IMG/VR virus record: IMGVR_UViG_3300017744_000172
Span: 1-23,034 of that record
Length of the DNA: 23,034 bases
Reading direction: 5' to 3' (one strand)
DNA from: a virus
Part shown: in pieces, positions 3,207-22,627 of the stretch
How the letters are laid out: every line of letters starts with the position of its first letter
Position numbering within the stretch: the stretch's first letter is position 1
Notes under the pieces: generated by a model
The model's input: only the letters and a program-made list of their open reading frames with translations
What the model was told of the DNA's origin: nothing
The model's database searches: none
Position numbers and translations under genes: made by a program

Positions 3207-3418
3207 AGTTTATAGAAATTGAAACATCAACAGGAATGACCTGTTTAGATTTAGAACACGTTAGTGCTTTCACATATACTAAAAAAACAGGTATGCTAAA
3301 GAAAACACAATATGACATATCAATACATATGATTAGTGGAACAATATTTACAGGAGTAGTTGGTGAAGAAAAGTTCCAATTTATCCAAGATGAATTAGGG
3401 TGTGAATGGGTTGAGTGA
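3203..3418 (+). CDS. Small beta-rich unknown protein
   Basis: This 71-residue protein alternates hydrophobic strands (residues 3-8, 13-17, 20-26, 36-43, 45-51) before a short C-terminal helix. The pattern (strand, L-x-x-V, strand, turn, strand, S-G, strand, V-x-E-E-x) resembles the separate small protein at 20798-21043, so the two may be diverged relatives of one small beta-barrel or PH-like family. No enzyme motif is seen. It overlaps its upstream neighbour by ATGA. Confidence 0.6.
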   Translation: MKFIEIETSTGMTCLDLEHVSAFTYTKKTGMLKKTQYDISIHMISGTIFTGVVGEEKFQFIQDELGCEWVE

Positions 3419-4568
3419 AGTCCGACCTAGAAGAACATTAGGCACAGGACATTGGGATAAGAAACTCATGCGAAACATGGTAGATTTATCTGAAGCAGAT
3501 AACTATGAAGATGCTAAACATGAATGGATAGCAACAGGTAAAGTTTGGTGGACAGGCTTAGGTGATAAAATACCTGATTATGTTAAACCTCACAGAAACT
3601 ATTGTTTATGCGGTCATAATATAGCATATCATTTTGAAATACACAATACAGTAACAGATGTTAGAGAATGTGTTGGTTCAGACCACATTAACTCTTATCT
3701 AATTCTTAGAGCAATCCGTGAAGAAACAGGATTATCAGATGAAAATATTACTGATGAAATGATTGAAGAGTGGATTACCGTTAGAGTAGAAGCACTAAAG
3801 AAAACTGCTTGGTGGAATGTTCACGGTGAAGCGTTTGTTCATATGTTTGATGCTGTCAAAGATATTGACTTAAGAGTTAATGTTAGAGAGGGCAAGAAAA
3901 GATATTATGATTCAGAGATTAGAAGATATAAAAATGAAACATATATTCGTAAGCGTTCTACCGGAGAAGTTGGTGACGACCATTATGAAATGGCTTCTAT
4001 AGTTTGGAGATGGAATCATCCCGATAACCCTAAAGCACAAGCAAACAAAAGAGGATATCCTAATGATAAACTATGGATGGACTTGATTAGATTCTTTGCT
4101 GATTTAGAAAATGTCAACCTTCTCTTGAAAAAAGAGGATGATTTACGAGCAAAACAGATTGAGACTGTAAAAAAACACGATGATTTACAGAAGAAAATCA
4201 GAGAAGAACAAAGAAAACGTAGAGATAAAGTTGTTGAAAACATGAATGAGATAAAAATATCTCCTGCATTTACAGCAGCGTGTGAGTATTATGGTGTACC
4301 TGTTTTTGTTGCAGAACAGGGTAAAGACTCTTGGGAAGAAAGATTTCTTGGAGATATCAAAGGTAAAATGGTGAAAGGAACAATATTATCAGAAAACCAA
4401 ATAAGTAAGTTGAATGAAATATTACTTGGTAAGAAAAAGGATGTTCCGGCAACAGATAAACAAAAGAATTATCTTTTAAGATTGGGGTATGAAGGTGATG
4501 TAGATGATATCACTAAGAGTCAAGCAAGTGATGAAATTGGGAAATTAAAAAATAGTAGGTGGTCTTAA
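3402..4568 (+). CDS. Zinc-finger and coiled-coil protein with phage-type C-terminal domain
   Basis: The 388-residue product starts with GTG inside the end of the previous gene; a TTG nine bases later is an alternative. Residues 66-97 hold C-x-C-G-H, then a strand pair and E-C-V-G-S-D-H, resembling a single zinc-binding module (CxCG...vGs.C/H) that I recall from viral proteins. Residues about 230-285 form a long charged coiled coil. Residues 355-388 match a short C-terminal element common in phage recombination and repair proteins: A-T-D-K-Q-x-N-Y-L-x-x-L-G, then an acidic loop and T-K-x-x-A-S-x-E-I. A nucleic-acid-binding role is likely but unproven. The stop overlaps the next start as TAATG. 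Confidence 0.6.
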   Translation: MNGLSEVRPRRTLGTGHWDKKLMRNMVDLSEADNYEDAKHEWIATGKVWWTGLGDKIPDYVKPHRNYCLCGHNIAYHFEIHNTVTDVRECVGSDHINSYLILRAIREETGLSDENITDEMIEEWITVRVEALKKTAWWNVHGEAFVHMFDAVKDIDLRVNVREGKKRYYDSEIRRYKNETYIRKRSTGEVGDDHYEMASIVWRWNHPDNPKAQANKRGYPNDKLWMDLIRFFADLENVNLLLKKEDDLRAKQIETVKKHDDLQKKIREEQRKRRDKVVENMNEIKISPAFTAACEYYGVPVFVAEQGKDSWEERFLGDIKGKMVKGTILSENQISKLNEILLGKKKDVPATDKQKNYLLRLGYEGDVDDITKSQASDEIGKLKNSRWS

Positions 4569-4875: not shown

Positions 4876-5076
4876 ATGTTATTAACAATAATAAATGAAA
4901 CAGGACACACAGAATTAGAAGTAACCCAAGTAGAGGTAATTGAGCAAATCAACGACCATCCTACACATTGGGTCTTTGTAGACGGTGAATTAACTTCAAG
5001 AGAAGATATAGCCGATGTTAATTGGGATGCCGTAGAAATGGTTGACCTAACCCCTGCAATAGTTGGCGGCTGCTAA
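4876..5076 (+). CDS. Ubiquitin-like (MoaD/ThiS-type) beta-grasp protein ending in GGC
   Basis: This 66-residue protein follows the MoaD/ThiS-type beta-grasp layout. There is an N-terminal hairpin (residues 2-7 and 12-18), a helix-forming segment about 19-28, a strand with V-F-V-D-G-E at 33-38 (the position of V-N-G-E in ThiS), then D-A-V-E-M-V and the tail P-A-I-V-G-G-C at 60-66. MoaD, ThiS, SAMPs and ubiquitin expose a terminal Gly-Gly that an E1-like enzyme adenylates. Here one Cys follows, as in ubiquitin precursors that need trimming. An E1-like gene and a JAMM peptidase gene lie downstream in the same gene array, which supports the reading. Short length and low sequence conservation make this a pattern call. 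A folded, structured spacer follows. Confidence 0.6.
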   Translation: MLLTIINETGHTELEVTQVEVIEQINDHPTHWVFVDGELTSREDIADVNWDAVEMVDLTPAIVGGC

Positions 5077-5101
5077 AGCCCCACTATTTGTAGGATTTTT
5101 A

Positions 5102-5158
5102 GAAGGGTCTTAGTGGTAACTCTCTCGGTATTGCTAAGACCTTTCACCCATAGGGTGA
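5102..5158 (+). promoter_or_regulatory. Two consecutive RNA hairpins upstream of the reductase genes
   Basis: GAAGGGTCTTAG at 5102-5113 pairs with CTAAGACCTTTC at 5134-5145 over 12 positions with one G-U pair, around a 20-base loop containing AACTCTCTCGGT. A second stem, TCACCC/GGGTGA with an ATA loop, occupies 5144-5158. The ATG of the next gene follows seven bases later, and no separate Shine-Dalgarno is visible except GGGTGA inside the second stem. Opening that stem could control translation of the gene before the ribonucleotide reductase. A terminator or processing site is also possible. Confidence 0.5.
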
Positions 5159-5164
5159 TTTATA

Positions 5165-5548
5165 ATGGAGTTAAAAGACGATTTAAATTACGCTGATAAA
5201 AGAATAATCAAAACATTGTTTGAGTTGTTTGGATGGAATCTAAAGACATTCAAAGAATATGAAAATCTAGCACTTGTTCGTGCTGATTTTTACCCTGTTG
5301 GTTATGTTCTTGCTATCAGCAATAAAGCAATAATAATTTGTGAAGGTCAGAGTGTTTTTACATATAAGAATAAAGAATATAATGACTTTGAAGAATTATT
5401 AAATACAATAGGCTCTAGGGCTTATTCCACGTTTCCTAATTGGCAGGTAGGAATAGAGAAAGAGTGGACAATTAGAAAGAATGGTAAATGGGTTGGCTCA
5501 TTTTCAAATCTTTCTGATATGCCGTATAGAAAACAGGTAAGGTGTTAA
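5165..5548 (+). CDS. Unknown protein upstream of ribonucleotide reductase
   Basis: This 127-residue protein has an N-terminal helical part (residues 1-30), a strand-rich middle with V-G-Y-V-L-A-I and A-I-I-I-C-E blocks, and a C-terminal W-T-I-R-K-N-G-K-W-V-G stretch that looks like a beta hairpin. No family is recognised. It is separated from the reductase gene by three bases, so the two are probably co-translated. Its translation may be governed by the hairpins in front of it. The neighbourhood suggests, but does not show, a link to nucleotide metabolism. Confidence 0.65.
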   Translation: MELKDDLNYADKRIIKTLFELFGWNLKTFKEYENLALVRADFYPVGYVLAISNKAIIICEGQSVFTYKNKEYNDFEELLNTIGSRAYSTFPNWQVGIEKEWTIRKNGKWVGSFSNLSDMPYRKQVRC

Positions 5549-5551
5549 AAA

Positions 5552-7408
5552 ATGGAGTTAAGTAATAAAATATTATCAGATATAACAGTATATATGAAGT
5601 ACGCTAAATGGCGTGAATTAGATTGGAGAAGAGAAACTTGGGATGAGATTTGCGATAGAAATATGCAAATGCACATTAAGAAATATCCTGAGTTAAAGTC
5701 AGACATAGAGATGGTGTATGCCCTTCATGTAAAGACTAGAAAGATTCTTCCCTCTATGAGGTCATTTCAGTTTGCAGGTAAGTCAGTAGAGATTTCACCT
5801 AACCGTATATACAATTGTGCATATATGCCTGTTGATGACATTGCCTGTTTTTCAGAAGCAATGTTCTTATTACTTGGTGGAACAGGAGTAGGTTATTCTG
5901 TTCAAAGACATCATGTAATTAAATTACCAGAAATTAGATTACCTAACCCTAACAGAACAAGAAAGATAGTTATCGAAGATTCTATTATGGGATGGGCTGA
6001 TGCAATCAAAGATTTGTTCCGTTCATATACAGGAGAGTTAACACAAACACCTAGGTTCATTTATGATGATATTAGACCTAAAGGTGCAAGACTAAAAACA
6101 AGTGGTGGTAAAGCGCCCGGAGCAGCGCCTTTAAAGAAAGCAATGGTTATTATTGAAGGTATTCTTCAGAATAAGACTAACGGTAGTTATCTTACTCCTT
6201 TAGAATGCCATGATATATTATGTCATATTGCTGATGCAGTATTATCTGGCGGTATCAGACGAGCAGCAATGATTAGTTTGTTTAGTGCTGATGATTCATC
6301 AATGATTAATTGTAAAGCAGGTCATTTCTGGGAGACTAACCCTCAGAGAGCAAGAGCAAACAATTCAGCAGTAATTCAAAGACATAAGATAAAGAAAGAT
6401 TTCTTTCTTGATTTATGGAAAAAGATAGAAGAAGGTGGTTCAGGAGAACCCGGAGTTTATTTCACTAATGACAAAGATTGGGGAACAAACCCCTGCTGCG
6501 AGATAGGATTAAGACCGTATCAATTCTGCAACTTGACTGAATTAAATACTTCTAATATAGAAAGTCAACAAGACTTTGAAGAAAGAGCATTAGCAGCAAC
6601 CTTCTTAGGAACATTACAAGCAGGTTATACTGATTTCCATTACCTTAGAGATATATGGAAAGAAACTACTGAAAGAGATGCTTTACTTGGAGTTTCAATG
6701 ACAGGTTTAGCAAGCAATAAAGTATCTAATTTAGATATAGTAGGTGTAGTTCATAAGATGAAAGCATACAATGCTGAGATTGCAGAAAAGATAGGAATAA
6801 ACCCTGCTGCAAGATTAACTTGTGTTAAACCATCAGGAACAGCATCATGTGTATTAGGCACATCGAGTGGTATTCATGCTTGGCATTCTGCTTATTATAT
6901 TAGAAGAGTGCGAGTTAAAGACAATGAACCTATTTGTAAATATTTAGTAGACAACCATCCTGAATTAGTTCAGAGAGATGTATTTGATGCAGAAGGTCAT
7001 GTTATAGAAATACCTCAGAATGCTCCTGCGGGTGCGCTAACAGTAGATGATGAAGATTCGTTTATGTTCCTTGAAAGAGTAAAACACGCATCAACACATT
7101 GGGTTCAACCCGGCCATTCAGACGGTCAGAATAGCCACAATGTTTCTGCTACTGTTTATATTAAAGAAGAAGATTGGGATGCAGTAGGAGAATGGATGTG
7201 GCAGAATAGACATTTCTATAATGGTTTATCTTGTTTCCCTGAGAATCAAAAATATGCACAGGCTCCATTTGAGAAATGCAGTAAAGAAGTATACGATAAG
7301 ATGATGCAATCTTTGAAGAATGTAGATTTAACTCAAATTATTGAACATGATGATTCTTCTGATTTCGGGAATGACCCTGCTTGTGCGGGTGGTGCTTGTG
7401 AAATCTAA
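5552..7408 (+). CDS. Class II (adenosylcobalamin-dependent) ribonucleotide reductase, monomeric type
   Basis: This enzyme reduces ribonucleotides to deoxyribonucleotides using a cobalamin-generated thiyl radical. The 618-residue sequence has the signature order of monomeric ribonucleoside-triphosphate reductases. R-I-Y-N-C places the first redox Cys at 89, and L-L-G-G-T-G-V-G-Y-S-V-Q-R lies at 107-119. N-P-C-C-E holds Asn313, the candidate thiyl Cys315 and Glu317, and F-C-N-L places the partner Cys at 326, eleven residues after Cys315 as expected. P-S-G-T-A-S follows at 427-432, and a C-terminal Cys611-x4-Cys616 pair can re-reduce the active site. It is shorter than the roughly 740-residue Lactobacillus enzyme, mainly in the N-terminal half. 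Class II enzymes need no radical-carrying partner gene, and none is seen. Confidence 0.92.
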   Translation: MELSNKILSDITVYMKYAKWRELDWRRETWDEICDRNMQMHIKKYPELKSDIEMVYALHVKTRKILPSMRSFQFAGKSVEISPNRIYNCAYMPVDDIACFSEAMFLLLGGTGVGYSVQRHHVIKLPEIRLPNPNRTRKIVIEDSIMGWADAIKDLFRSYTGELTQTPRFIYDDIRPKGARLKTSGGKAPGAAPLKKAMVIIEGILQNKTNGSYLTPLECHDILCHIADAVLSGGIRRAAMISLFSADDSSMINCKAGHFWETNPQRARANNSAVIQRHKIKKDFFLDLWKKIEEGGSGEPGVYFTNDKDWGTNPCCEIGLRPYQFCNLTELNTSNIESQQDFEERALAATFLGTLQAGYTDFHYLRDIWKETTERDALLGVSMTGLASNKVSNLDIVGVVHKMKAYNAEIAEKIGINPAARLTCVKPSGTASCVLGTSSGIHAWHSAYYIRRVRVKDNEPICKYLVDNHPELVQRDVFDAEGHVIEIPQNAPAGALTVDDEDSFMFLERVKHASTHWVQPGHSDGQNSHNVSATVYIKEEDWDAVGEWMWQNRHFYNGLSCFPENQKYAQAPFEKCSKEVYDKMMQSLKNVDLTQIIEHDDSSDFGNDPACAGGACEI

Positions 7409-7739
7409 ATATCCGATAACAAGTATTAAAGAATTAGAAATGATAAAGGAAGATTTGATAGCAGTTTGTTCTACTATCGAAACTGTCCTACCTACATTAT
7501 CTTCTAGATATCAAGGAAGAAGTTATTCCTATGTAGATAAAAGAACAGCCTTGCTCGCTGTTAATCGAGCAATAGAGGACACTGTTAAAGGTGAACTTGA
7601 CGTTACAAATCTCTTACGTTATTTGCGTAGACTTTTTATAGTAAGTGGAAAGGTTACAAATGACGAAGAGTTTGATAAGTTTTTAGTTGAGATGTATCAA
7701 CTAGCCAAATATAAAGAAGTGAATAAAGATGAAATGTAA
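7398..7739 (+). CDS. Unknown helical protein
   Basis: I choose the GTG at 7398, which overlaps the end of the reductase gene and follows GGTGG, rather than an in-frame ATG further inside the reductase gene; an ATG at 7440 is a third option. The 113-residue product is mostly helical, with a central basic stretch (L-L-R-Y-L-R-R-L-F) and no recognised motif. Its stop overlaps the next start. Confidence 0.55.
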   Translation: MKSKYPITSIKELEMIKEDLIAVCSTIETVLPTLSSRYQGRSYSYVDKRTALLAVNRAIEDTVKGELDVTNLLRYLRRLFIVSGKVTNDEEFDKFLVEMYQLAKYKEVNKDEM

Positions 7740-8160
7740 ATGTGGTAATGAAAAGTTTATGCTAGAATGGGGTAAATTGAAATGTGCAGAATGTGGCACT
7801 AGACAATATATACGATATTCAGCAGAAGAACATAAAATAATGAAGAACGAAAAACACTATTTCTGGGCAGTATTAACGCCTAAGTTTATAGAAGCAAGAG
7901 ACAAGCACTTTCCTGAGATTGAGGATGATGTAATTATAAATATGTGTAAAGACATAGAAAAATATTACAAGGGCAAATGGCCTAAAGTGCATTGTAAAAC
8001 TACTGCAAGTAAGTGGAGAGGTAAACATATCTATTGGAGATATAAGTTTAATCCTCATAAAAAACGTGCAGAAGTAGTTATGAGTAATATAACAAATAGT
8101 GATAGAATACAAGATAGAAGAAAAGAAGAAGTTAAGTTTGTAACGGTGGATTTTAAATGA
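7729..8160 (+). CDS. Zinc-ribbon protein of unknown function
   Basis: The 143-residue product opens with a zinc ribbon: C-K-C-G at residues 3-6 and C-A-E-C-G at 19-23, separated by a short hairpin. Residues 30-143 are basic, rich in Trp and Tyr (K-W-R-G-K-H-I-Y-W-R-Y), and look like a mixed alpha/beta domain with a basic surface. Zinc ribbons of this form are common in archaeal transcription and primase-associated proteins, so nucleic-acid binding is likely. The family is not recognised. It is tightly coupled to both neighbours. Confidence 0.6.
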   Translation: MKCKCGNEKFMLEWGKLKCAECGTRQYIRYSAEEHKIMKNEKHYFWAVLTPKFIEARDKHFPEIEDDVIINMCKDIEKYYKGKWPKVHCKTTASKWRGKHIYWRYKFNPHKKRAEVVMSNITNSDRIQDRRKEEVKFVTVDFK

Positions 8161-8612
8161 ATGAAATGATAATATATAAAGAAAGTAGTAAAAGTAAATT
8201 GATAGCAGCATATAGACAGTATTTAAGAGATGAATTGAATATTAAAATCGAAGAAGAAAATGCTCGCAATAATAGTAAAAAGAGATTAGTAAATAAATAT
8301 ACTAATCTAAAAAGACCTGAAATAGATAGTAATCCTATATCTTGGAATAAGTTTAGAAGATTACCTAAATCAGCAATTGTAGTGCATTTGTTTATGGAAG
8401 GTTGTAATCCTGATTATGTATCTAATTTTGTTATGGAAAAGGAGTCTGCTGCTAAGGATGTAAAAGGTGCTATATTCTGTTTCCATTCTAAAGGTAAAGA
8501 TAGTAAAAAGGGATTCCATTGGTGTAATTCTAAATGTTGTGAGTCATATAAACATCAAACTTATACACGCTTTTTTACTAAAGGGGTGAAGATAAATGAC
8601 TCTTCCGTATGA
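8157..8612 (+). CDS. Unknown basic protein, possible HTH
   Basis: Residues 1-60 of this 151-residue protein are basic and helical. Residues about 72-100 (A-I-V-V-H-L-F-M-E-G, a turn, then Y-V-S-N-F-V-M-E) could form a helix-turn-helix of the kind that follows a leucine-rich first helix. The C-terminal part is cysteine- and histidine-rich (F-C-F-H, W-C-N-S-K-C-C) and may bind zinc. It overlaps the upstream gene by ATGA and the downstream gene by 17 bases. The function is unknown; DNA binding is the best guess. Confidence 0.5.
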   Translation: MNEMIIYKESSKSKLIAAYRQYLRDELNIKIEEENARNNSKKRLVNKYTNLKRPEIDSNPISWNKFRRLPKSAIVVHLFMEGCNPDYVSNFVMEKESAAKDVKGAIFCFHSKGKDSKKGFHWCNSKCCESYKHQTYTRFFTKGVKINDSSV

Positions 8613-9918
8613 ATATAACATAGAGTTTGTAATAAGACAGGTTGATGATAGTGGTAATACACACACCACTAAAACTAGGATTAAATCATCTTATGATATA
8701 CCACAAGCACAGAATTACTCAATGGAAGGACATCAACGTGTTCATCTTAAACTAGATGCTATCGGAAAGAAAAAAGGAGACCCTTTGATTATATCAATGG
8801 CTTCTCAAATAAGAAAGTTTTTTGGTTGGGGTACTAGAAGTAATTATGCATATGCTTCTGCTCCTGATATATTCAAAATACAGATTCATTTTGAAAATGG
8901 TGCTATGATGTTCATTGAAAAGAAATCACCGTATTACTATTTGATGGGTAATCGTCTCACTAAAAAGAATGTAATGATGCCATTGGCTAGAACAATATTC
9001 CATTCGTGCTTTGAGAAAGATTCTCTTAAGTTGACTGAATATATGTTTAAGATGATAGCATTACCTGAAAATGTTCAGTATGTTCTAGAAAATAGAACAC
9101 CTTATTGGTTTTTTGATACAGGAGAACCTGATGAATGGGGTCAAGTACATAGAACAAAAATTGAGGTCAGACTTAATACGAAAATGATTGCCACTCAAAA
9201 GGCTGCATTAGAAATATCAGATGGTGTATGGTGTCCAATTGATATTGATGACCTTGATAAGTTTGTTAACTATTATTATCATAATCATACTAGAGGTAAG
9301 AAATGGGCGTATAAATCTCCTAACAAGATTTGGGAAATGTTAGTAGGTACTGCTCCAACAGATGCTCAATCACATCTTATGTTAGAGTTTCTAAGACAGA
9401 ACAGAACTGATAAGATGGTTGAAGATAGAGCAAAGGAATTAATGAAAAGTCTAACTGTTAAATATCCTGATAGAATTAAAATATTAGAAGTACCTGCCAA
9501 AGAAGAAGGCAAGACAGCAGAAATTATGATAATTAAAGGTAAATTGATGGATTGGATTATTGTAGAGCAACCTTATAAAACTGCAACTCAAAAAGTTAAA
9601 ACTTATTCCTTTGTAAGTAAGGAATGTTTAAGCCATGAAATTAGTGAACCTGATGTACTTGAAGGTAGATGTAATTTCAAACAATTTGGTGCGCGTATAG
9701 GAATGGTAAAAGGGCCAATTTGTATTGATAACATCCATACTAATTCTAGTGTTGGAGACCAATATGCTGCTAGAGCATTAGCATTATTGAATGATAAAAT
9801 TACTGTTGATTTAGTATATACTATCAAAAAATATGTACCTGTAGTTTGTTATTCTGGTGAAGTAGAATCTAGACTTCCTGATAGTTTAGAAGGTATAGAT
9901 TGGAATGGGGTATTGTAA
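8596..9918 (+). CDS. Unknown 440-residue protein near the E1 gene
   Basis: No family is certain. Residues about 90-185 contain a strand pair, S-P-Y-Y-Y-L-M-G, a helix, then A-L-P-E-N-V and T-P-Y-W-F-F. This is loosely like the order seen in PRTRC system protein B, a family assigned to a divergent E2 group (Prok-E2_D). Near the C terminus G-P-I-C-I-D places Cys376 in a setting that recalls the G-x-I-C-L-D active-site strand of E2 enzymes. Neither likeness is strong, the protein is much larger than a typical E2, and the expected His-Pro-Asn motif is not seen. Its position, one gene before the E1-like gene, is what makes the idea worth noting. The alternative is an unknown structural or replication protein. 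Confidence 0.45.
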   Translation: MTLPYEYNIEFVIRQVDDSGNTHTTKTRIKSSYDIPQAQNYSMEGHQRVHLKLDAIGKKKGDPLIISMASQIRKFFGWGTRSNYAYASAPDIFKIQIHFENGAMMFIEKKSPYYYLMGNRLTKKNVMMPLARTIFHSCFEKDSLKLTEYMFKMIALPENVQYVLENRTPYWFFDTGEPDEWGQVHRTKIEVRLNTKMIATQKAALEISDGVWCPIDIDDLDKFVNYYYHNHTRGKKWAYKSPNKIWEMLVGTAPTDAQSHLMLEFLRQNRTDKMVEDRAKELMKSLTVKYPDRIKILEVPAKEEGKTAEIMIIKGKLMDWIIVEQPYKTATQKVKTYSFVSKECLSHEISEPDVLEGRCNFKQFGARIGMVKGPICIDNIHTNSSVGDQYAARALALLNDKITVDLVYTIKKYVPVVCYSGEVESRLPDSLEGIDWNGVL

Positions 9919-10829
9919 TGCAATGTATGGTGTGTAAAAGCCATAAAAATTATATTGATGATAGATTAGGAGAAAAGGTTTGTGTTGATTGTGGATATGT
10001 AATGGTATCTAATATATCAGAAGAAACTATTTCTCCTAATCTTCCTAACGATGAGTATAGATTGGGTGATAGAGGTAGTCTAGGTTCTCATATGTCTTTG
10101 GTTGGTAATCAATCTTTGATTAGAAAGTTGAAGAGAACACAAGATGTATTTTCTAAAAAACTAGACTCTAACTTAGTTAAAGGTCAAATGGAATGCAATA
10201 TGATTTTAAGTCCATGGCTTCCAAATAATAATCTTAAGGATAGAGTTCATTCATATTACAAGAGATTCTACTCAGATAGATATACTTGGAGATATACTAT
10301 CTCAGTTAGAGCAACAGCATTAGTATTCTTAGTTTTGAGAGAAAATGGTATTCCTATATCTATTTCTCAATTGTCTAAAGATAACAATGAAGATAAGTTT
10401 AGAGTATCAAAAGCAGTCAGGTACTTTGCTAGACAAATAAACAAACCTTGGTTATTGCATCAAGTGTCTGTTGATAGTTGGGCTGATAAAGTAGCACAGG
10501 ATTTGTTTAGTAACAATAAATTAATTGATGAATCAAGTTTTAGAAACGACTTAAGAGTTGTAACACAATATGTAAGTCAGATAATATCTGATAGAGGATT
10601 GTATTTCTCTAAAGGACACATGGCTTCATGCGTGTGGATAACCTGTTTGTTAAGAACAACAGGTTCATGGCCTGAGTTTACTCAAGCCGAGATTGCTAAT
10701 AGTTGTAAATGTGGAACATTAACAATTAGAAACAATAATAATAGCATATATAATATGTTAGCAGTAAACAAAAAAATGCTTAAAGCATTAACCGTAAACA
10801 ATTTTGTAGCAGGTGTAAGATATGAATAA
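9918..10829 (+). CDS. TFIIB-like transcription initiation factor
   Basis: TFB binds the TBP-promoter complex and recruits archaeal RNA polymerase. This 303-residue protein opens with a zinc ribbon (Cys3, Cys6, Cys22, Cys25). A linker at about 30-75 is where the B-reader would lie (D-R-G-S-L-G-S at about 51-57). Two helical repeats of about 90 residues follow and fit the cyclin-like core; the first includes S-V-R-A-T-A-L-V-F-L-V and the second K-G-H-M-A-S-C-V-W-I. The ATG at 9918 overlaps the upstream stop (TAATG) and begins just before the ribbon; an earlier in-frame ATG at 9900 lies inside the upstream gene. The length matches archaeal TFBs but the core is divergent. A virus-encoded TFB could redirect host polymerase. 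Confidence 0.8.
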   Translation: MQCMVCKSHKNYIDDRLGEKVCVDCGYVMVSNISEETISPNLPNDEYRLGDRGSLGSHMSLVGNQSLIRKLKRTQDVFSKKLDSNLVKGQMECNMILSPWLPNNNLKDRVHSYYKRFYSDRYTWRYTISVRATALVFLVLRENGIPISISQLSKDNNEDKFRVSKAVRYFARQINKPWLLHQVSVDSWADKVAQDLFSNNKLIDESSFRNDLRVVTQYVSQIISDRGLYFSKGHMASCVWITCLLRTTGSWPEFTQAEIANSCKCGTLTIRNNNNSIYNMLAVNKKMLKALTVNNFVAGVRYE

Positions 10830-11421
10830 AAAAGAAGAAAAAAGAAAGATATTAATAATAGGCGTAGGTGGAATAGGGAGTTACTTGACTCCTTTATTAC
10901 ATAAAACAGGGTTGTATGATTTACATATTGCCGACCCTGATATTGTTGAAGAAAAGAATCTGTATTATCAGAACTTTAACACAAGTCACTTAGGAAAAAA
11001 GAAAGTAAATTGTATTGTTGAACATGATGTCTTAGGTTTAAGACACATATATCCAATATTAACTGATAGTCAATTAGAAGGTGGATATGATTTAATAATA
11101 TGTTGTGCAGATAACCTAGACGCAAGACGTTTAGTTTATAGGCAAGGGTTTGGAGATAATGCAAAGACTATGTGGTTGGATTTGAGAGCGCAAGGTAGAA
11201 ATGGTGCATTGATTAGTTGTCTTGCAGACCCTAAGTTTTCAGATACTTTCTTAGCAGGTGAAGAGGGTTCGTTTAGTTGTCAAGGTGCATCATTTAATGA
11301 TACAACTCAGAAACAAAACTTACACTTTACTCATGTAGCAATAGCGGGTATTGGAGCGCAATGGATTCAAAGATTCTTCAATGAAGAACAAGTAAAAGAT
11401 AAAATGGTAATAAATATATGA
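10822..11421 (+). CDS. E1-like (ThiF/MoeB/UBA superfamily) adenylating enzyme
   Basis: E1-like enzymes adenylate the C-terminal glycine of a ubiquitin-like protein and often pass it to a cysteine. The 199-residue product has a Rossmann nucleotide-binding start, G-V-G-G-I-G-S at 14-20. It also has A-D-P-D at 37-40 with an acidic ribose-binding residue, N-L-Y-Y-Q-N-F at 46-52, a lysine-rich G-K-K-K at 58-61 and I-I-C-C-A-D-N at 92-98 before A-R-R. Cys153 in S-F-S-C-Q lies where ThiF/E1 proteins carry their catalytic cysteine. The CxxC zinc pairs of MoeB/UbaA are absent. The size matches the compact ThiF proteins of PRTRC-type and phage cassettes. It overlaps the TFB gene by eight bases. Confidence 0.85.
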   Translation: MNKKEEKRKILIIGVGGIGSYLTPLLHKTGLYDLHIADPDIVEEKNLYYQNFNTSHLGKKKVNCIVEHDVLGLRHIYPILTDSQLEGGYDLIICCADNLDARRLVYRQGFGDNAKTMWLDLRAQGRNGALISCLADPKFSDTFLAGEEGSFSCQGASFNDTTQKQNLHFTHVAIAGIGAQWIQRFFNEEQVKDKMVINI

Positions 11422-11431
11422 AGGTGATTAA

Positions 11432-12019
11432 ATGAGAGGAAAAACGTGGACAGAAGAAGAAAAAACAACAATGATGAACTTAGCAATGTCAACTAATATG
11501 ACAACACAAGAAGTAACAGATATGTTGAATGAAAGATATAATAACAAGAGAACAACTAAATCTGTGGAATCTAAAAAGAATAGAGTCCTAGAAGAATTAG
11601 GTGTGATTGATAAGAAAACAAAAGATGTGAATGTAATGACAAAAATAGAAAACAGAAACTCTAGAAAAGGTTGGACAACAGCAGAGGATAGAGTATTAAT
11701 AGATGAATGGACAGCAGAAAAAAGAAAGCAAGAGAAAATTGCCACTAAATTGGGTAGAAGTGTAGGTTCTTGTGCTTCTAGGATTTGGAGAATAAAAAAG
11801 AATCCTCAGTATTTTCATGCTTTATTAGATGGAGCAACTGTAAATCTACATCAGATAGAAATGACAGGAGATATGAGTGTTCGTTCTGAGTATGACTTAA
11901 CAGATAACACTCTTTTAGATAGAAGTTATAGATGGCTTAAAACAAGAAAAGAAAGAAAGCAACGCAAAAGAAAAGAAAAAATAGAAAGAAAAATAAATAA
12001 ACTAAGAGGTAGATTATAA
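11432..12019 (+). CDS. Protein with two Myb/SANT-like domains
   Basis: The 195-residue product has two three-helix DNA-binding units. The first, at residues 6-52 (W-T-E-E-E-K start, T-T-Q-E-V in the second helix), is followed by a linker. The second, at 80-122 (W-T-T-A-E-D-x-x-L-I, then K-I-A-T-K-L-G-R-S and a basic recognition helix), is more typical. The C terminus (165-195) is an extremely basic helix, suited to binding DNA or RNA nonspecifically. The second domain is clearly similar to the domain that begins the next gene, so duplication within this cluster is likely. AAGGTGATTAA gives a clear ribosome-binding site. It probably regulates transcription or packages DNA; the target is unknown. 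Confidence 0.65.
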   Translation: MRGKTWTEEEKTTMMNLAMSTNMTTQEVTDMLNERYNNKRTTKSVESKKNRVLEELGVIDKKTKDVNVMTKIENRNSRKGWTTAEDRVLIDEWTAEKRKQEKIATKLGRSVGSCASRIWRIKKNPQYFHALLDGATVNLHQIEMTGDMSVRSEYDLTDNTLLDRSYRWLKTRKERKQRKRKEKIERKINKLRGRL

Positions 12020-12501
12020 TGGCAAAATGGACAAAAGATGAAGAAGAAGAATTGATACAAGGTTGGCCTGTTAAAGAGCATAGAGACTCAATAGCAGAAG
12101 AACTTGGTAGAAGTAAAGCGGCTTGCGCTGCACGTTATCGCAAGTTGATTAAAGAAACACCTGCAAAAGATTTGACAGGCGATGCTTATGTTGAAAAGAT
12201 TCGACAGATGAAAGAAGAAGTAGTTGAAGAAGTTAAAGAAGCAATTACTCCAACAAAAGCGGCACAAGAAATTAGTGAAAAGATAACTGAAATCATAGAA
12301 CAAAATGAAGCAGAGTTAGTAGCAACTAATGGTAAACTGAAAGAAGTCAAAGAAGAATTGAAGGAAGAACAAATTAGTAATGTGATTGAAGTAATGCAAG
12401 AAAACAAAGTAGAACCTACTAGAAAAGGTAGTGGTTTCGCTATAAAACTACTACTGTTAGTAGGTCTTTGTGCTACTGTATATTGGATGTGGATGCAATG
12501 A
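12019..12501 (+). CDS. Tail-anchored Myb/SANT-like protein with coiled coil
   Basis: This 160-residue protein joins three parts. Residues 4-45 form a Myb/SANT-like domain (W-T-K-D-E-E-E-x-L-I, S-I-A-E-E-L-G-R-S, A-A-R-Y-R-K-L). Residues 55-130 form a long charged coiled coil. Residues 140-158 are a hydrophobic helix (A-I-K-L-L-L-L-V-G-L-C-A-T-V), ended by W-M-W-M-Q at the C terminus. The order implies a tail-anchored protein with its DNA-binding end in the cytoplasm. The start overlaps the previous stop (TAATG), and the end overlaps the JAB gene (ATGA). A role in attaching the genome to the membrane is inferred from architecture only. Confidence 0.65.
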   Translation: MAKWTKDEEEELIQGWPVKEHRDSIAEELGRSKAACAARYRKLIKETPAKDLTGDAYVEKIRQMKEEVVEEVKEAITPTKAAQEISEKITEIIEQNEAELVATNGKLKEVKEELKEEQISNVIEVMQENKVEPTRKGSGFAIKLLLLVGLCATVYWMWMQ

Positions 12502-13037
12502 GTAGTTGTGATTGCTGTAAAGACGGTGAGTTAGAAGTGGAAACCCCAGATTCAGGACTTGCTAAACATATTATGAATAAAGATATTGAATATGACACAC
12601 AGGTAGTTATAGAAGATTGGAAAGAACAGATAGAAGAGTCTTATGGATATGATTGGAATATTAAGTTCCACCAAAAGATTTGGGAAATGTCATTGACTGC
12701 TTTTGATAAGCCTAGAGAGGTTCAAGTGGTTATTGATAAAAACCAAAAACTGTTTATTAGTGTAGGTGATGGTAGTTTTGTTTCCTTTGATGGACAAGAA
12801 GGTGCATTGAAAGGAATGAAGTTGCCTTTGCGTGAATGGATTCATACACATCCGTTTGGACAAGCCTATTTCTCAGGAACAGACTTAAGAACTATTTCTA
12901 TATGGGAACGTTATCTAGACTCAGCAACAGTCATAGGTAAAGACGAGGAAATGAAAATATTCTTTAGAGTTGGTAACAATGGTGAACACTTTCAAGAATA
13001 CTCTCAATATGCTTGGGTAGGAGATGAAGAAGAATGA
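12498..13037 (+). CDS. JAB/JAMM (MPN) domain metalloprotease
   Basis: JAMM peptidases cut after the C-terminal glycines of ubiquitin-like proteins. The start at 12498 overlaps the previous stop as ATGA. Residues 116-129 spell H-T-H-P-F-G-x5-S-x-x-D, an exact H-x-H-x10-D zinc-binding signature with the usual Pro119 and Ser126. The upstream catalytic Glu is probably Glu63 or Glu74. The preceding strands, with G-D-G-S-F-V-S at 90-96, fit the MPN core. The N terminus is cysteine-rich (C-D-C-C at 4-7), an addition I do not recognise from the family. Encoded with a Ubl and an E1, it most likely trims the Ubl (removing its final Cys) or deconjugates it. Phage tail JAB proteins are the alternative parallel, but no tail genes are nearby. 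Confidence 0.85.
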   Translation: MSSCDCCKDGELEVETPDSGLAKHIMNKDIEYDTQVVIEDWKEQIEESYGYDWNIKFHQKIWEMSLTAFDKPREVQVVIDKNQKLFISVGDGSFVSFDGQEGALKGMKLPLREWIHTHPFGQAYFSGTDLRTISIWERYLDSATVIGKDEEMKIFFRVGNNGEHFQEYSQYAWVGDEEE

Positions 13038-13468
13038 TAAGAAGCGTAGTTGTATTAATGATATTATCTACATTACTAGCAGGGTGTGCTGATGCAATAC
13101 CTGATATACCTAGTGATGATGAAGTAATAGTGACAGAATGGACAACATTAACAGGTAATTTTACTATGTTAATTGATGATACCAATAATTCTACATATGA
13201 GACTGTAGTTATAGGCAACAGTAGCAAGTGGTTAGTTGTTGAATCTTTTAATTACACAGCAACTCATTTGAGTTTTATAGTAAATAATAATACTGTTATA
13301 TTTAATAATTATACCTTTGATAATATAGGATTCATTTCTCAAAATGGATTATTGTTTCATCAAGGACACGCACCTAACTATGGACAGGCTGAATTGTTTT
13401 TCCCTGCGTTTCCTTATGATATAACTGTTGAATATACAGTAGTGTTTAGAACGGTGAATGGTAGATGA
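13034..13468 (+). CDS. Secreted lipoprotein with many N-glycosylation sequons
   Basis: Residues 1-18 form a lipoprotein signal peptide: a short basic start, a hydrophobic core and L-L-A-G-C with Cys18 as the likely lipid-attachment site. The mature part (about 126 residues) is polar and beta-strand-rich. It carries seven N-x-S/T sequons within roughly 70 residues (NFT, NNS, NST, NSS, NYT, NNT, NYT), far more than chance gives in the other genes here. It would sit on the outside of the cell membrane and be heavily glycosylated by the archaeal host. Surface exclusion, host recognition or an envelope role are possible. I recognise no family. Confidence 0.65.
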   Translation: MIRSVVVLMILSTLLAGCADAIPDIPSDDEVIVTEWTTLTGNFTMLIDDTNNSTYETVVIGNSSKWLVVESFNYTATHLSFIVNNNTVIFNNYTFDNIGFISQNGLLFHQGHAPNYGQAELFFPAFPYDITVEYTVVFRTVNGR

Positions 13469-13878
13469 CTAGGGCAATAACTGTTAAGTTTCCCGCACCT
13501 TTACCTGCTGAAATACCTTGTCCTATTTGTAGTAGAGATGGTAAGTTAGGTAATGGTTGCGTTGCTTGTGATTATGCAGGTAAAATACACATAACAGTTG
13601 ATGCTAAAATACCCATTCAAAGAGCGCATATAATAAAATATGTATCTGATAATATGAGTGCGGTCTCGGCTGAGTTGACTAAATTATATGGTTTAGTTCC
13701 CTCAGTTGAGACCAATGAAGTTTTAGATACTGAAATGGGGCAATTTGAGATTGTCCAAGTTAGTAGTTTAGGTGGTGCAGTTTGGATAGCAAACAGATTA
13801 GATGAGTTTGCCGCACCAAGATATTTCTATTCTACACATGAACTTAATATATTTAAGAGTGGTATAGATGGAAGATGA
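13465..13878 (+). CDS. Protein with DnaJ-like zinc motif
   Basis: The 137-residue product has C-P-I-C at residues 19-22 and C-V-A-C at 32-35, with intervening glycines (D-G-K-L-G-N-G) and A-G-K after the second pair. This resembles half of the DnaJ cysteine-rich zinc domain (CxxCxGxG repeats). The remaining 95 residues are an alpha/beta domain without a recognised motif. The start overlaps the lipoprotein stop (ATGA). RNA or protein binding through the zinc site is plausible; the function is unknown. Confidence 0.55.
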   Translation: MTRAITVKFPAPLPAEIPCPICSRDGKLGNGCVACDYAGKIHITVDAKIPIQRAHIIKYVSDNMSAVSAELTKLYGLVPSVETNEVLDTEMGQFEIVQVSSLGGAVWIANRLDEFAAPRYFYSTHELNIFKSGIDGR

Positions 13879-21043: not shown

Positions 21044-21839
21044 GAAGAATAATGAGAATAAAGATGTAATAGATTTTGGTAAAGAACAAGATGAATGGAA
21101 TAAGAAATATGCAGAAACTTTTCTAGTTAAAAAGGATAAAAAATCTAGAATGTGTTTAGGCATTTGGGGCGACCCTAAGAATGGTAAAACAGGTTTAGCA
21201 TTGGATTTTCCAGATAGAGAAATATACGTTTTAGATTGGGATAGAGGTGTTGAGTCTACATGGAAAGAACATTATGATGCAACAGATAGAATAAAAATAC
21301 ATTGTCCTATCATTAGAGATAAAAGTAATGTAATTGATATTCATGCTTCTGAAAGAGAATCGTTAATGTTTGTTAACTTTGTACGTCAAAAGATTGAAGA
21401 AGGCGATAAGCCAATATTTGTATTTGATGGCGTAGATACTTGGCATGAATCTTGTTTACTAAAGGTAAGTCCTGACCCTAGAAAGGTCGCTAAGATGATG
21501 CCTTGGCAATATGGAGAAAGAAACAAAACTTTCTTTTTCTTAATGGAAGCAGTATACGCTTTAGATTGTGATGTTATTTACATAACCCATAAGACTGAAA
21601 ATTACCTTGATGGTAATGTAGTAGGTTATTCTCCTATATGGAAAAATTGGGGCGGTAAATTAGAACAAGAGATTAGAACAGGAACTAAATCTGTTAAAGG
21701 GGAATTACAATATGTAGCACAGTTAGTTGCTAGTAGAACAAATGGTAACTTAGTAGGTACTACATGGGTAACTAGAGAAGGTAGACCTCCAAATGTAGTT
21801 TGGAATGGTATTCCTCAACTACGAGAGGGTAATATATGA
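21027..21839 (+). CDS. Sak4-like RecA-fold ATPase
   Basis: Sak4 proteins are phage RAD51-related ATPases that help anneal or pair single strands with an SSB. I use the ATG at 21027, after AGGTGATAATT, rather than the GTG at 21018. The 270-residue product has Walker A G-D-P-K-N-G-K-T at 48-55, a strand with V-L-D-W-D-R-G about 68-74, and Walker B I-F-V-F-D-G-V-D-T at 130-138. A later strand V-I-Y-I-T-H-K-T fits the sensor strand (compare I-T-H-x in AAA_24/Sak4 proteins). There is no N-terminal RadA domain. Neighbouring SSB and PCNA genes match the role. Assignment to Sak4 over a general P-loop ATPase is moderate. Confidence 0.75.
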   Translation: MGWTSEKNNENKDVIDFGKEQDEWNKKYAETFLVKKDKKSRMCLGIWGDPKNGKTGLALDFPDREIYVLDWDRGVESTWKEHYDATDRIKIHCPIIRDKSNVIDIHASERESLMFVNFVRQKIEEGDKPIFVFDGVDTWHESCLLKVSPDPRKVAKMMPWQYGERNKTFFFLMEAVYALDCDVIYITHKTENYLDGNVVGYSPIWKNWGGKLEQEIRTGTKSVKGELQYVAQLVASRTNGNLVGTTWVTREGRPPNVVWNGIPQLREGNI

Positions 21840-22627
21840 AAGAGATATTTATAAATAGAAAAAAACTAAGCAACGGAATAGAAGATGTTCTCCTTAAAGG
21901 GAGATATAGGGGAGCATCTTCTTCCAAAGTTGATTTGATTAACCCTAATGTTGCTATATTAATTAATAGTAGAACAGGAATAACGATAGCAAATGCTAAT
22001 CATTCAATCGCTACTATGGTTATAGTTAACATTAATCCTTCAATAGAAGAAGAAAGACACTTTGAACCATGTTGGGTTTATTGTGATGCTGAGAAGGCAA
22101 TCAAATATCTTAAGGCTATGAAAGATGATGAAATTATGTTGAAAATAACAGATAGTAAATTAATATTCAACGGTATTGATACACAATTAATGATGCCTTT
22201 AAGTATTGAACATTCAGGTATTTCTGCAATTGCTAAACTTATGATGGCTAAGGTAGACCAACAACATGAAGGGACAACTGCCAAGTTTGGTAATACTACT
22301 TTTGATACAGTCGTTTTACTTGAAGATAGTAAAGACCTCGCTAGAGCAATTAAAGAATGTTCAGTAGTAGGAACTTCTTCGTTTAAGTTAACGTTTGATA
22401 AACAAAACCTAGCAGTATCTTCTTCTAATTTTCAGAATACTGAAACATATAAAACGTATGTAGATTTTACAGGAGCATTCGGTGAAGATGTAGAAGTAGA
22501 GTTTTCTGCACCGTTAGATAAGTTTTGTAAAGGTAGGTTGTATCTTTGTTTAAAGGATATGGCTCCGGTATTAATAATAGGAGCAGATAGAAAATTAATA
22601 GTTGCTCCTTATATAAGAGATGATTAA
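21836..22627 (+). CDS. PCNA sliding clamp (divergent)
   Basis: PCNA forms a trimeric ring that tethers polymerase and other enzymes. The 263-residue length matches the two-domain protomer (about 245-265). The C-terminal part is diagnostic: D-V-E-V-E-F-S-A-P-L-D-K-F about 222-234, then strands ending V-A-P-Y-I-R-D at 256-262, where cellular PCNA ends in y-l-l-A-P-R. Repeated strand-helix units with buried hydrophobics fill residues 1-210. Sequence conservation is low and the interdomain loop is unusual. The location between the Sak4-like gene and PolB, with RFC upstream, supports the call. The start is an ATGA overlap with the previous gene. Confidence 0.75.
   Translation: MKEIFINRKKLSNGIEDVLLKGRYRGASSSKVDLINPNVAILINSRTGITIANANHSIATMVIVNINPSIEEERHFEPCWVYCDAEKAIKYLKAMKDDEIMLKITDSKLIFNGIDTQLMMPLSIEHSGISAIAKLMMAKVDQQHEGTTAKFGNTTFDTVVLLEDSKDLARAIKECSVVGTSSFKLTFDKQNLAVSSSNFQNTETYKTYVDFTGAFGEDVEVEFSAPLDKFCKGRLYLCLKDMAPVLIIGADRKLIVAPYIRDD

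Follow-up and report, generated by a model that had tools for sequence, protein, structure and literature searches.

The viral sequence considered here is IMG/VR virus record IMGVR_UViG_3300017744_000172, a stretch of 23,034 bases that we refer to in full as the window. Its G+C content is ~33% and its gene-length open reading frames (ORFs) all lie on the plus strand. Among them are a gene for a 66-residue beta-grasp ubiquitin-like protein (Ubl; 4876..5076), a gene for a minimal 199-residue adenylating enzyme of the ThiF fold (E1; 10822..11421), and a gene for a JAMM/MPN+ metallopeptidase (12498..13037). All three were found exactly where a first-pass annotation of this DNA had placed a ubiquitin-like, E1, and JAMM set. 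Between the Ubl and E1 genes lies a fourth gene, for a conserved protein of 440 residues (p440; 8596..9918), which we regard as a candidate E2. The association of Ubl, E1, and JAMM is real, conserved, under purifying selection, and far beyond chance.

The first-pass annotation had proposed to look for the three genes together in related viral contigs. Used as single-sequence baits, the E1, JAMM, and Ubl proteins found 6, 30, and 47 loci, respectively, corresponding to 72 viral contigs besides the window, three of which (L002, L003, and L010) carry a bait protein 100% identical to that of the window. The full trio is present in 58 of the 72 contigs, 54 in the stretch examined and four through searches of the whole record (L026, L035, L052, and L068, the E1 of L035 being represented by 69 codons only, at the margin of its stretch). 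In each of the 54 contigs with the trio inside the stretch, the three genes share a strand and follow the order Ubl, E1, JAMM, and p440 separates the first two. The remaining 14 contigs are short on the side of the absent gene: L073 and L081 stop at p440 or shortly beyond it, L065 ends 37 bp after the Ubl gene, and L010, L011, L024, and L025 have 51 to 1,165 bp upstream. The distance from Ubl to E1 ranges from 2,262 bp (L152) to 8,334 bp, with a median of 5,658 bp (118 loci, overlapping loci of one contig being counted apart). A second set was collected with a profile of the first-set E1s, hence not independent in origin, and comprises 53 new contigs from the best 80 of 302 matching relatives; some of its stretches (e.g., L134 and L160) end before the contig does. 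In this set, every contig whose sequence upstream of E1 exceeds 4,289 bp has a Ubl (32/32; 22/22 at 8,400 bp or more). Given 3,000 bp or more upstream, p440 is always found (36/36), as is JAMM given 2,500 bp or more downstream (52/52), and the 32 contigs having all four genes keep the order Ubl-p440-E1-JAMM without exception. The 20 contigs without a Ubl have 121 to 4,289 bp upstream, a length that in six of them exceeds the smallest gap. Genomes with E1 and JAMM and no Ubl, which the first-pass annotation had set against its own proposal, are absent among the relatives whose sequence upstream of E1 exceeds 4,731 bp; shorter ones cannot decide.

The association persists in stretches in which no ribonucleotide reductase (RNR) gene, a neighbor in the window, was detected (e.g., L122, L126, and L130), and no ORF joining any two of nine families was seen in the loci examined. 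For the trio genes, the ratio of nonsynonymous to synonymous substitution rates (dN/dS) has a nonzero estimate in 14 pairs, where it is 0.03 to 0.24; one near-identical Ubl pair gave 0.00. In 5 further pairs dS is saturated, and the values for the two near-identical Ubl pairs reflect very few changes. Outside viral records, a Ubl profile matched in GTDB only three contigs (L085, L086, and L087) of the Altibacter metagenome-assembled genome EAC109, which are likely binned viral contigs. Two of the loci, L066 and L122, belong to one contig of 184,733 bp with two differently spaced cassettes ~90 kb apart, which could be a chimera, a concatemer, or a double-length genome.

The small protein, first read as MoaD/ThiS-like and ending in GGC, indeed has the C terminus AIVGGC, its diglycine G64-G65 being encoded at 5065-5070 and followed by one residue, the cysteine. 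The window Ubl has no Pfam match; among 42 aligned rows, ThiS was matched by 9 at an E value of 1 or less (best 8e-4). Identity of the relatives to the window protein is 55 to 89%, and the Ubl of L020 has no match among named phage records. An AlphaFold model made from the 42-row alignment (pLDDT 85.2) shows the beta-grasp order b-b-a-b-b-b and a free tail (strands 2-7 and 10-15, helix 18-27, strands 31-35 and 38-40, short helix 42-45, strand 55-60, and then the loose end). Foldseek places ubiquitin structures on top (best E value 3.9e-3), and VIA-align lists MoaD (Z 5.7, 3.3 Å over 62 residues), TtuB (Z 5.2, 2.5 Å over 57 residues), and a bacterial E1-E2-Ubl complex (Z 5.0), rows no more than 1 Z apart being tied. 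A fold other than the beta-grasp, the other outcome on which the initial proposal would have foundered, is thus not what AlphaFold, Foldseek, and VIA-align indicate: as modeled, the 66-residue protein is a beta-grasp Ubl with an exposed C-terminal diglycine. VGG is kept in 76/76 distinct Ubls; since VGG and HPFG were part of some peptide patterns in the first Ubl and JAMM baits, the counts from these baits are biased toward the motifs, a bias of which the 53 E1-found contigs are free. The tail after VGG varies in its letters; it is absent from 5 of the distinct Ubls, and its length is one residue in 26, two residues in 44, and nine residues in a single case. Lysines are scarce in the core (none in 27, one in 44, two in 5) and nearly always near the N terminus. 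Invariant columns include, besides V63-G64-G65, G10-H11-T12, H28, and H31-W32; the invariant H11, H28, and H31 together with W32 may mark a binding or metal site.

The compact E1 with GVGGIGS and a candidate catalytic Cys153 (nucleotides 11278-11280) was likewise recovered as described. The window protein matches Pfam ThiF (E value 6e-17, 62 bits, against a cut-off of 28.1) as a single short ThiF domain, and no rhodanese domain was found in it with Pfam. Over 50 aligned rows the invariant columns include G14/G16/G17, D38, D40, N46, Q50, K61, and C153, invariant cysteines occurring only at 94, 95, and 153, and SCQ around Cys153 is kept in 104/104 distinct E1 ORFs. Searched against solved structures, the E1 profile matches UBA5 best (3e-10), followed by the ThiF-type chain 9egc, MoeB, and Cap2. 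The NCBIfam models PRTRC_ThiF, ThiF, MoeB, and UbaA are matched by 50/50 rows, the window row scoring far under their cut-offs. Relatives are 48 to 74% identical to the window E1, which has only distant matches among named phage records (49 records, all below 60% identity). In a tree of 32 rows, 13 viral E1s form one group (support 93/93) apart from PRTRC, crAss, and MoeB/ThiF proteins, the deep forks being weak.

The JAMM peptidase with its exact HxHx10D motif was correctly called as well, and the motif HTHPFGQAYFSGTD (nucleotides 12843-12884) includes SxxD. The JAMM/MPN+ signature consists of a Glu plus HxHx(7-10)SxxD, and the candidate catalytic residues E74, H116, H118, S126, and D129 are invariant across 48 rows, HxHP...SxxD being kept in 104/104 distinct sequences. 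The first start of the reading frame is a TTG at 12468; the ATG at 12498 overlaps the stop of the preceding gene. The window protein scores 18 bits with Pfam Prok-JAB, under the 25-bit cut-off, and 46/48 rows match that model at an E value of 0.1 or less (best 1.9e-5). Among solved structures, the profile matches the deubiquitinases AMSH-LP (9e-5) and archaeal Rpn11 (2e-3) best; a top-listed WD-repeat chain was set aside as a repeat artefact. Relatives are 38 to 79% identical to the window JAMM, which has no match among named phage records. Five distinct Ubls (L068, L021, L125, L158, and L137) end exactly in GG, and none of their records lacks a JAMM: the motif is intact in the four whose JAMM lies in the stretch examined, and the gene is present in the record of L068. 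The five should not be counted as independent (L125 and L137 look alike), and a second Ubl is assumed to be absent from them. The retention of JAMM where the Ubl already ends in GG suggests that it probably has a deconjugating role beyond precursor maturation.

The p440 gene was overlooked in the first-pass annotation, and its product may be an E2-like partner of the trio. It is as widespread as the trio (76/84 loci, against 75/84 for E1), with relatives 30 to 52% identical to the window protein. Its predicted model is confident (pLDDT 86.5, pTM 0.60) and has in the C-terminal half a helix (273-289), four strands (294-300, 307-314, 318-324, and 334-341), and a helix (342-348), followed by a low-confidence stretch, a strand (369-375), Cys376, and helices 386-398 and 400-406, a layout that we take to resemble the E2 topology. 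This part (residues ~271-430, nucleotides ~9406-9885) is predicted to be E2/UBC-like, with weak sequence support. The top four VIA-align rows are all E2s (UBE2S, Z 4.2, 3.9 Å over 110 residues; UBE2K, 4.1; Rad6A, 4.0; and a UbcH5c fusion, 4.0), and ~20 of the first 30 come from E2-named entries aligned on residues ~266-435, others including CapZ and Mediator; at a Z below 8 the shared arrangement can be a widespread one, and the PDB contains many E2s. With Foldseek, three close relatives were found in a viral library, and no PDB entry below an E value of 0.08 (best 0.09, a chain of the BRCA1-A complex). The only invariant cysteine of p440 is Cys376 (nucleotides 9721-9723) in GPICIDN, a segment that in our view fits the E2 active-site motif G-x-[IV]-C-[LIV]-x; 103/104 distinct ORFs have [IVF]C[IV]D, the exception being a 49-residue edge fragment, and 93/104 have G.[IVFL]C[ILV]DN. 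With relaxed settings, hhalign aligns p440 and E2s over 135 columns, GPICIDN falling on the E2 cysteine motif. A canonical E2 (PF00179) was not found elsewhere in 29 large relatives, but the positive control gave no match either. Homology of p440 to PRTRC F or B, or to crAss gp78 or gp75, was also considered and dropped, since no similarity was seen. As the evidence linking p440 to E2s was all found after looking, it is a lead and not a test passed; p440 is a plausible E2 candidate on its predicted structure, not a confirmed member.

Gene content, fixed order, purifying selection, and conserved catalytic residues being established, together with a predicted Ubl fold, we propose that the Ubl-E1-JAMM set is quite probably a virus-owned ubiquitin-like modification system for conjugation and removal, whose reactions are predicted as follows. 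JAMM would first clip the residues after the Ubl diglycine, 71/76 distinct Ubls having such a tail, usually of 1 or 2 residues. The small E1, as its fold and invariant residues suggest, would then adenylate the glycine carboxylate with ATP and could hold the Ubl on Cys153. Transfer to protein targets, the weakest step, would probably pass through Cys376 of the E2-like p440, or else be made directly by E1. Direct transfer by E1 is the mode of the archaeal SAMP system. Finally, JAMM would also take the tag off. Because the Ubl core is lysine-poor, single tags are probably formed rather than chains, and because the genes sit in a replication and transcription module, the targets are likely to be replication or transcription proteins of the virus or host. 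The fullest version of this scheme, in which p440 is a highly diverged E2 within a complete E1-E2-Ubl-deubiquitinase cascade belonging to the core replication-module genes of magrovirus-like viruses, is one that we put forward tentatively; here, p440 would take the Ubl from E1 on Cys376 and tag replication or transcription proteins singly, and JAMM would reset them.

Several observations weigh against this proposal. The structural Z of the Ubl is modest (best 5.7), and Foldseek gave it no match at an E value of 0.001 or less. An arginine in NxxRQ and a four-cysteine zinc site are features of MoeB/ThiF-type E1s, whereas in the viral E1 a nearly invariant tyrosine (Y49) replaces the arginine and no conserved four-cysteine zinc site exists among the 50 rows. 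For p440, the structural Z does not exceed 4.2, sequence searches gave no match to the PDB or to the E2 models of Pfam, no HPN precedes Cys376, and the gene is the least constrained of the four (dN/dS 0.31 to 0.41). With default settings, hhalign of p440 against four typed E2s covers the first helix only (E value 0.034, probability 1.5%), comparison runs giving 0.11 to 0.68 for nine other families and the N-terminal half of p440, and 0.0024 for PRTRC B. Moreover, 13 contigs carry E1 with a flank of more than 2,262 bp and yet no Ubl, seven in the first set (L006, L017, L022, L023, L031, L036, and L037) and six in the second (L092, L097, L108, L114, L146, and L162). Their flanks, of 2,302 to 4,731 bp, are all under the 5,658-bp median gap, which makes truncation likely, though not proven. 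The least comfortable is L031, with a 4,548-bp flank, a changed gene order, and a contig end inside the RNR gene.

Of the two functions suggested in the first-pass annotation, protein tagging is favored here, and the supply of activated sulfur is disfavored. In the latter, the E1 would activate the Ubl to be loaded as a thiocarboxylate that thiolates tRNA, DNA, or a cofactor, and JAMM would only trim the C-terminal extension. The presence of MoaD and TtuB among the top VIA-align rows of the Ubl, tied with ubiquitin-type folds, and the weak matches of ThiS to 9/42 members are compatible with such a carrier, and a virus could borrow the sulfur enzymes of its host. Clusters of ThiS/MoaD, E1, and JAB are also known in siderophore pathways (PMC1779556). 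Nevertheless, PP-loop (PF01171), rhodanese (PF00581), and aminotransferase-V (PF00266) proteins had no match in any of 29 relatives of 81 to 103 kb, when the same three families were matched in 14, 13, and 14 of 14 control genomes, which counts against a sulfur-carrier role as far as these three go, other thiolation families not having been searched. The viral E1 without a rhodanese domain, the retention of JAMM beside Ubls already ending in GG, and the proximity of the JAMM profile to deubiquitinases point the same way, and we consider a sulfur carrier unlikely.

A counter-defense decoy, through which the viral Ubl and JAMM would disturb a host SAMP or other Ubl pathway, JAMM stripping host tags and the Ubl-E1 pair competing, appears more unlikely still. 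Bacteria reportedly tag phage proteins, a finding ascribed to Hor et al. 2024. However, a matched E1, the virus's own Ubl, and constrained catalytic residues suggest tag production and not only removal. Counter-defense genes are usually patchy, whereas the present set lies in a replication module and occurs in every contig with long enough flanks. On the side of the decoy, Borg elements encode numerous putative deSAMPylases of the JAMM type, for which a role against tagging by the host has been proposed (PMC12660748). Finally, it is highly improbable that a PRTRC plasmid-type system simply moved into archaeal viruses, for although PRTRC_ThiF is matched by 50/50 E1 rows (best E value 4e-18), hhalign joins the viral E1 to PRTRC ThiF over 172 columns (E value 7e-19), and the Ubl-like protein C likewise lies upstream of ThiF there, the window E1 reaches 40.5 bits against the 144.75 cut-off of the PRTRC_ThiF equivalog, the Ubl reaches an E value of 0.5 only with a small sample of five C proteins, p440 does not align with F or B, and the viral E1s form their own tree group, not joined to PRTRC (93/93, with weak deep forks).

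On the features tested (model scores, hhalign, and tree), the viral set does not group with SAMP, PRTRC, or Bil/CBASS and is most likely distinct from them. The SAMP/UbaA/JAMM1 system of Haloferax (cf. PMC4443979) is alike in its beta-grasp diglycine Ubl, single ThiF-type E1, JAMM protease, and archaeal setting. In contrast with SAMP, the window E1 scores 27 bits against the 450-bit UbaA equivalog cut-off and stands apart from two haloarchaeal MoeB proteins in the tree, the SAMP1 equivalog gives one of four viral Ubls 14.7 bits against 60 and the other three no match, and the viral genes form a fixed block with a possible E2-like partner. In plasmid PRTRC clusters, ThiF, protein A (with a JAB-type motif in one example), and the small protein C occur together, and the E1 profile is clearly related, the viral Cys153 aligning opposite a cysteine of PRTRC ThiF in the comparison with seven proteins; but no match was seen for the large companion proteins, nor for the viral Ubl in a comparison with five C proteins, a small sample, and these five C proteins end in KG or NG, not GG. 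The Bil, Bub, and CBASS type II operons follow a logic of Ubl, E1, JAMM, and E2. The viral E1 matches the PADLOC E1-E2 models, in the adenylation part only, whereas PADLOC gave no match for the window Ubl or the two JAMMs scanned, the set is virus-borne, and its E1 is not fused to an E2. The Borg deSAMPylases resemble the viral JAMM as proteases on archaeal mobile DNA but are multicopy and tied to SAMP, a dedicated E1-Ubl set going unmentioned in the accessible portion of that study (PMC12660748). Iyer et al. 2006 describe Ubl genes paired with JAB in the tail clusters of lambda-like phages, and bacterial operons that combine E1, JAB, and Ubl (PMC1779556).

Among phages, the crAss001 gp76-gp77 ThiF-JAB pair also places an E1 beside a JAB protein in a replication module, near a uracil-DNA glycosylase and a B12-dependent RNR, and six crAss-type ThiF proteins align with the viral E1 (hhalign E value 6e-20 over 102 columns), but the crAss pair has no identified Ubl, larger proteins, and bacterial hosts. 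In crAss001 (L164:4262-6660) and in L165 and L173 to L176, which are crAss-like and related gut phages, the ThiF E1 lies directly 3' of another gene (in crAss001 a Prok-JAB match, E value 5e-4), within a block of four genes flanked by primase and uracil-DNA glycosylase, possibly a parallel Ubl-type module in which no Ubl was identified. In Virus Rctr197k (L163:2964-3359 and 6013-6636), from a DAMO/AAA enrichment culture, a ThiF protein has a weak Prok-JAB match (E value 0.004) ~2.7 kb upstream.

The gene content around the set fits the archaeal replication module in which the first-pass annotation had placed it. A TFB (TFIIB-like) gene (9918..10829) lies between p440 and E1, overlapping the start of the latter by 8 bases, and matches the TFIIB model with an E value of 6.5e-9 (35 bits, cut-off 384); it is a conserved neighbor, not necessarily a part of the Ubl system. 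Further neighbors in the window are an ATP-dependent DNA ligase, an RFC-type AAA protein (RFC small subunit), and a pyrimidine-dimer glycosylase. The ORF at 21836-22627, without a Pfam match, resembles a sliding clamp in our view. Among the 29 relatives of 81 to 103 kb, family-B polymerase (PolB) is present in 28, in 20 of them as two separate frames, and a chaperonin in 15. The Aoguangviridae have PolB as N- and C-terminal parts, TFB, RFC-S, PCNA, ligase, and GroEL in a 92-kb genome of 31.5% G+C (PMC10768690), and the Apasviridae profile includes PolB and ligase (PMC12999244). Magrovirales are tailed viruses of Poseidoniales that have PolB, TFB, RFC-S, and ligase in genomes of ~90-110 kb. Since the gene content of the window and its relatives is like these profiles, the window is probably a magrovirus of Poseidoniales, a group of marine archaea.

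Prokaryotic Ubl systems have been described in host physiology (SAMP), on plasmids (PRTRC), and in anti-phage defense (Bil and CBASS), and here a matched Ubl, E1, and JAMM apparently constitute a core module in a large group of archaeal viruses. This magrovirus group is said to be abundant, to go by the title of Philosof 2017. No report of a ubiquitin-like system of magroviruses or Poseidoniales viruses was found in the open-access literature searched, earlier annotation in Philosof 2017 or Prabhu 2025 being possible, and text searches inside individual papers for ubiquitin, ThiF, and JAB returned no occurrence. If the set does conjugate proteins, it would offer a compact system in which to ask what a virus gains by tagging, and a test of the origin of E2-type transfer; should p440 be an E2, the set would amount to a self-contained ubiquitin-like system of a virus, lying outside both eukaryotes and bacterial defense.

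Two more conserved proteins accompany the set. Just 3' of JAMM, a 137-residue protein (p137; 13465-13878) with an invariant CPxC...CxxC is present in 67/84 loci; by sequence it has no convincing PDB match (best E value 0.004, a zinc-like stretch of a tRNA ligase). The idea that p137 is a split-off zinc part of the E1 was dropped, a single match having an E value of 0.015 and none being found against PRTRC ThiF. Upstream of the Ubl gene, a 388-residue protein (3402-4568) present in 69/84 loci has an invariant C68-x-C70 and H77, with no Pfam match above the cut-off (best DUF3072, E value 0.005) and no PDB match at an E value of 1 or less. The RNR gene of the window (5552-7408) is 51 to 56% identical to those of three named phages, and its close relatives (H22 to H24; phages PD0307 and VPs20) sit under features labeled "recombinase," apparently a misannotation.

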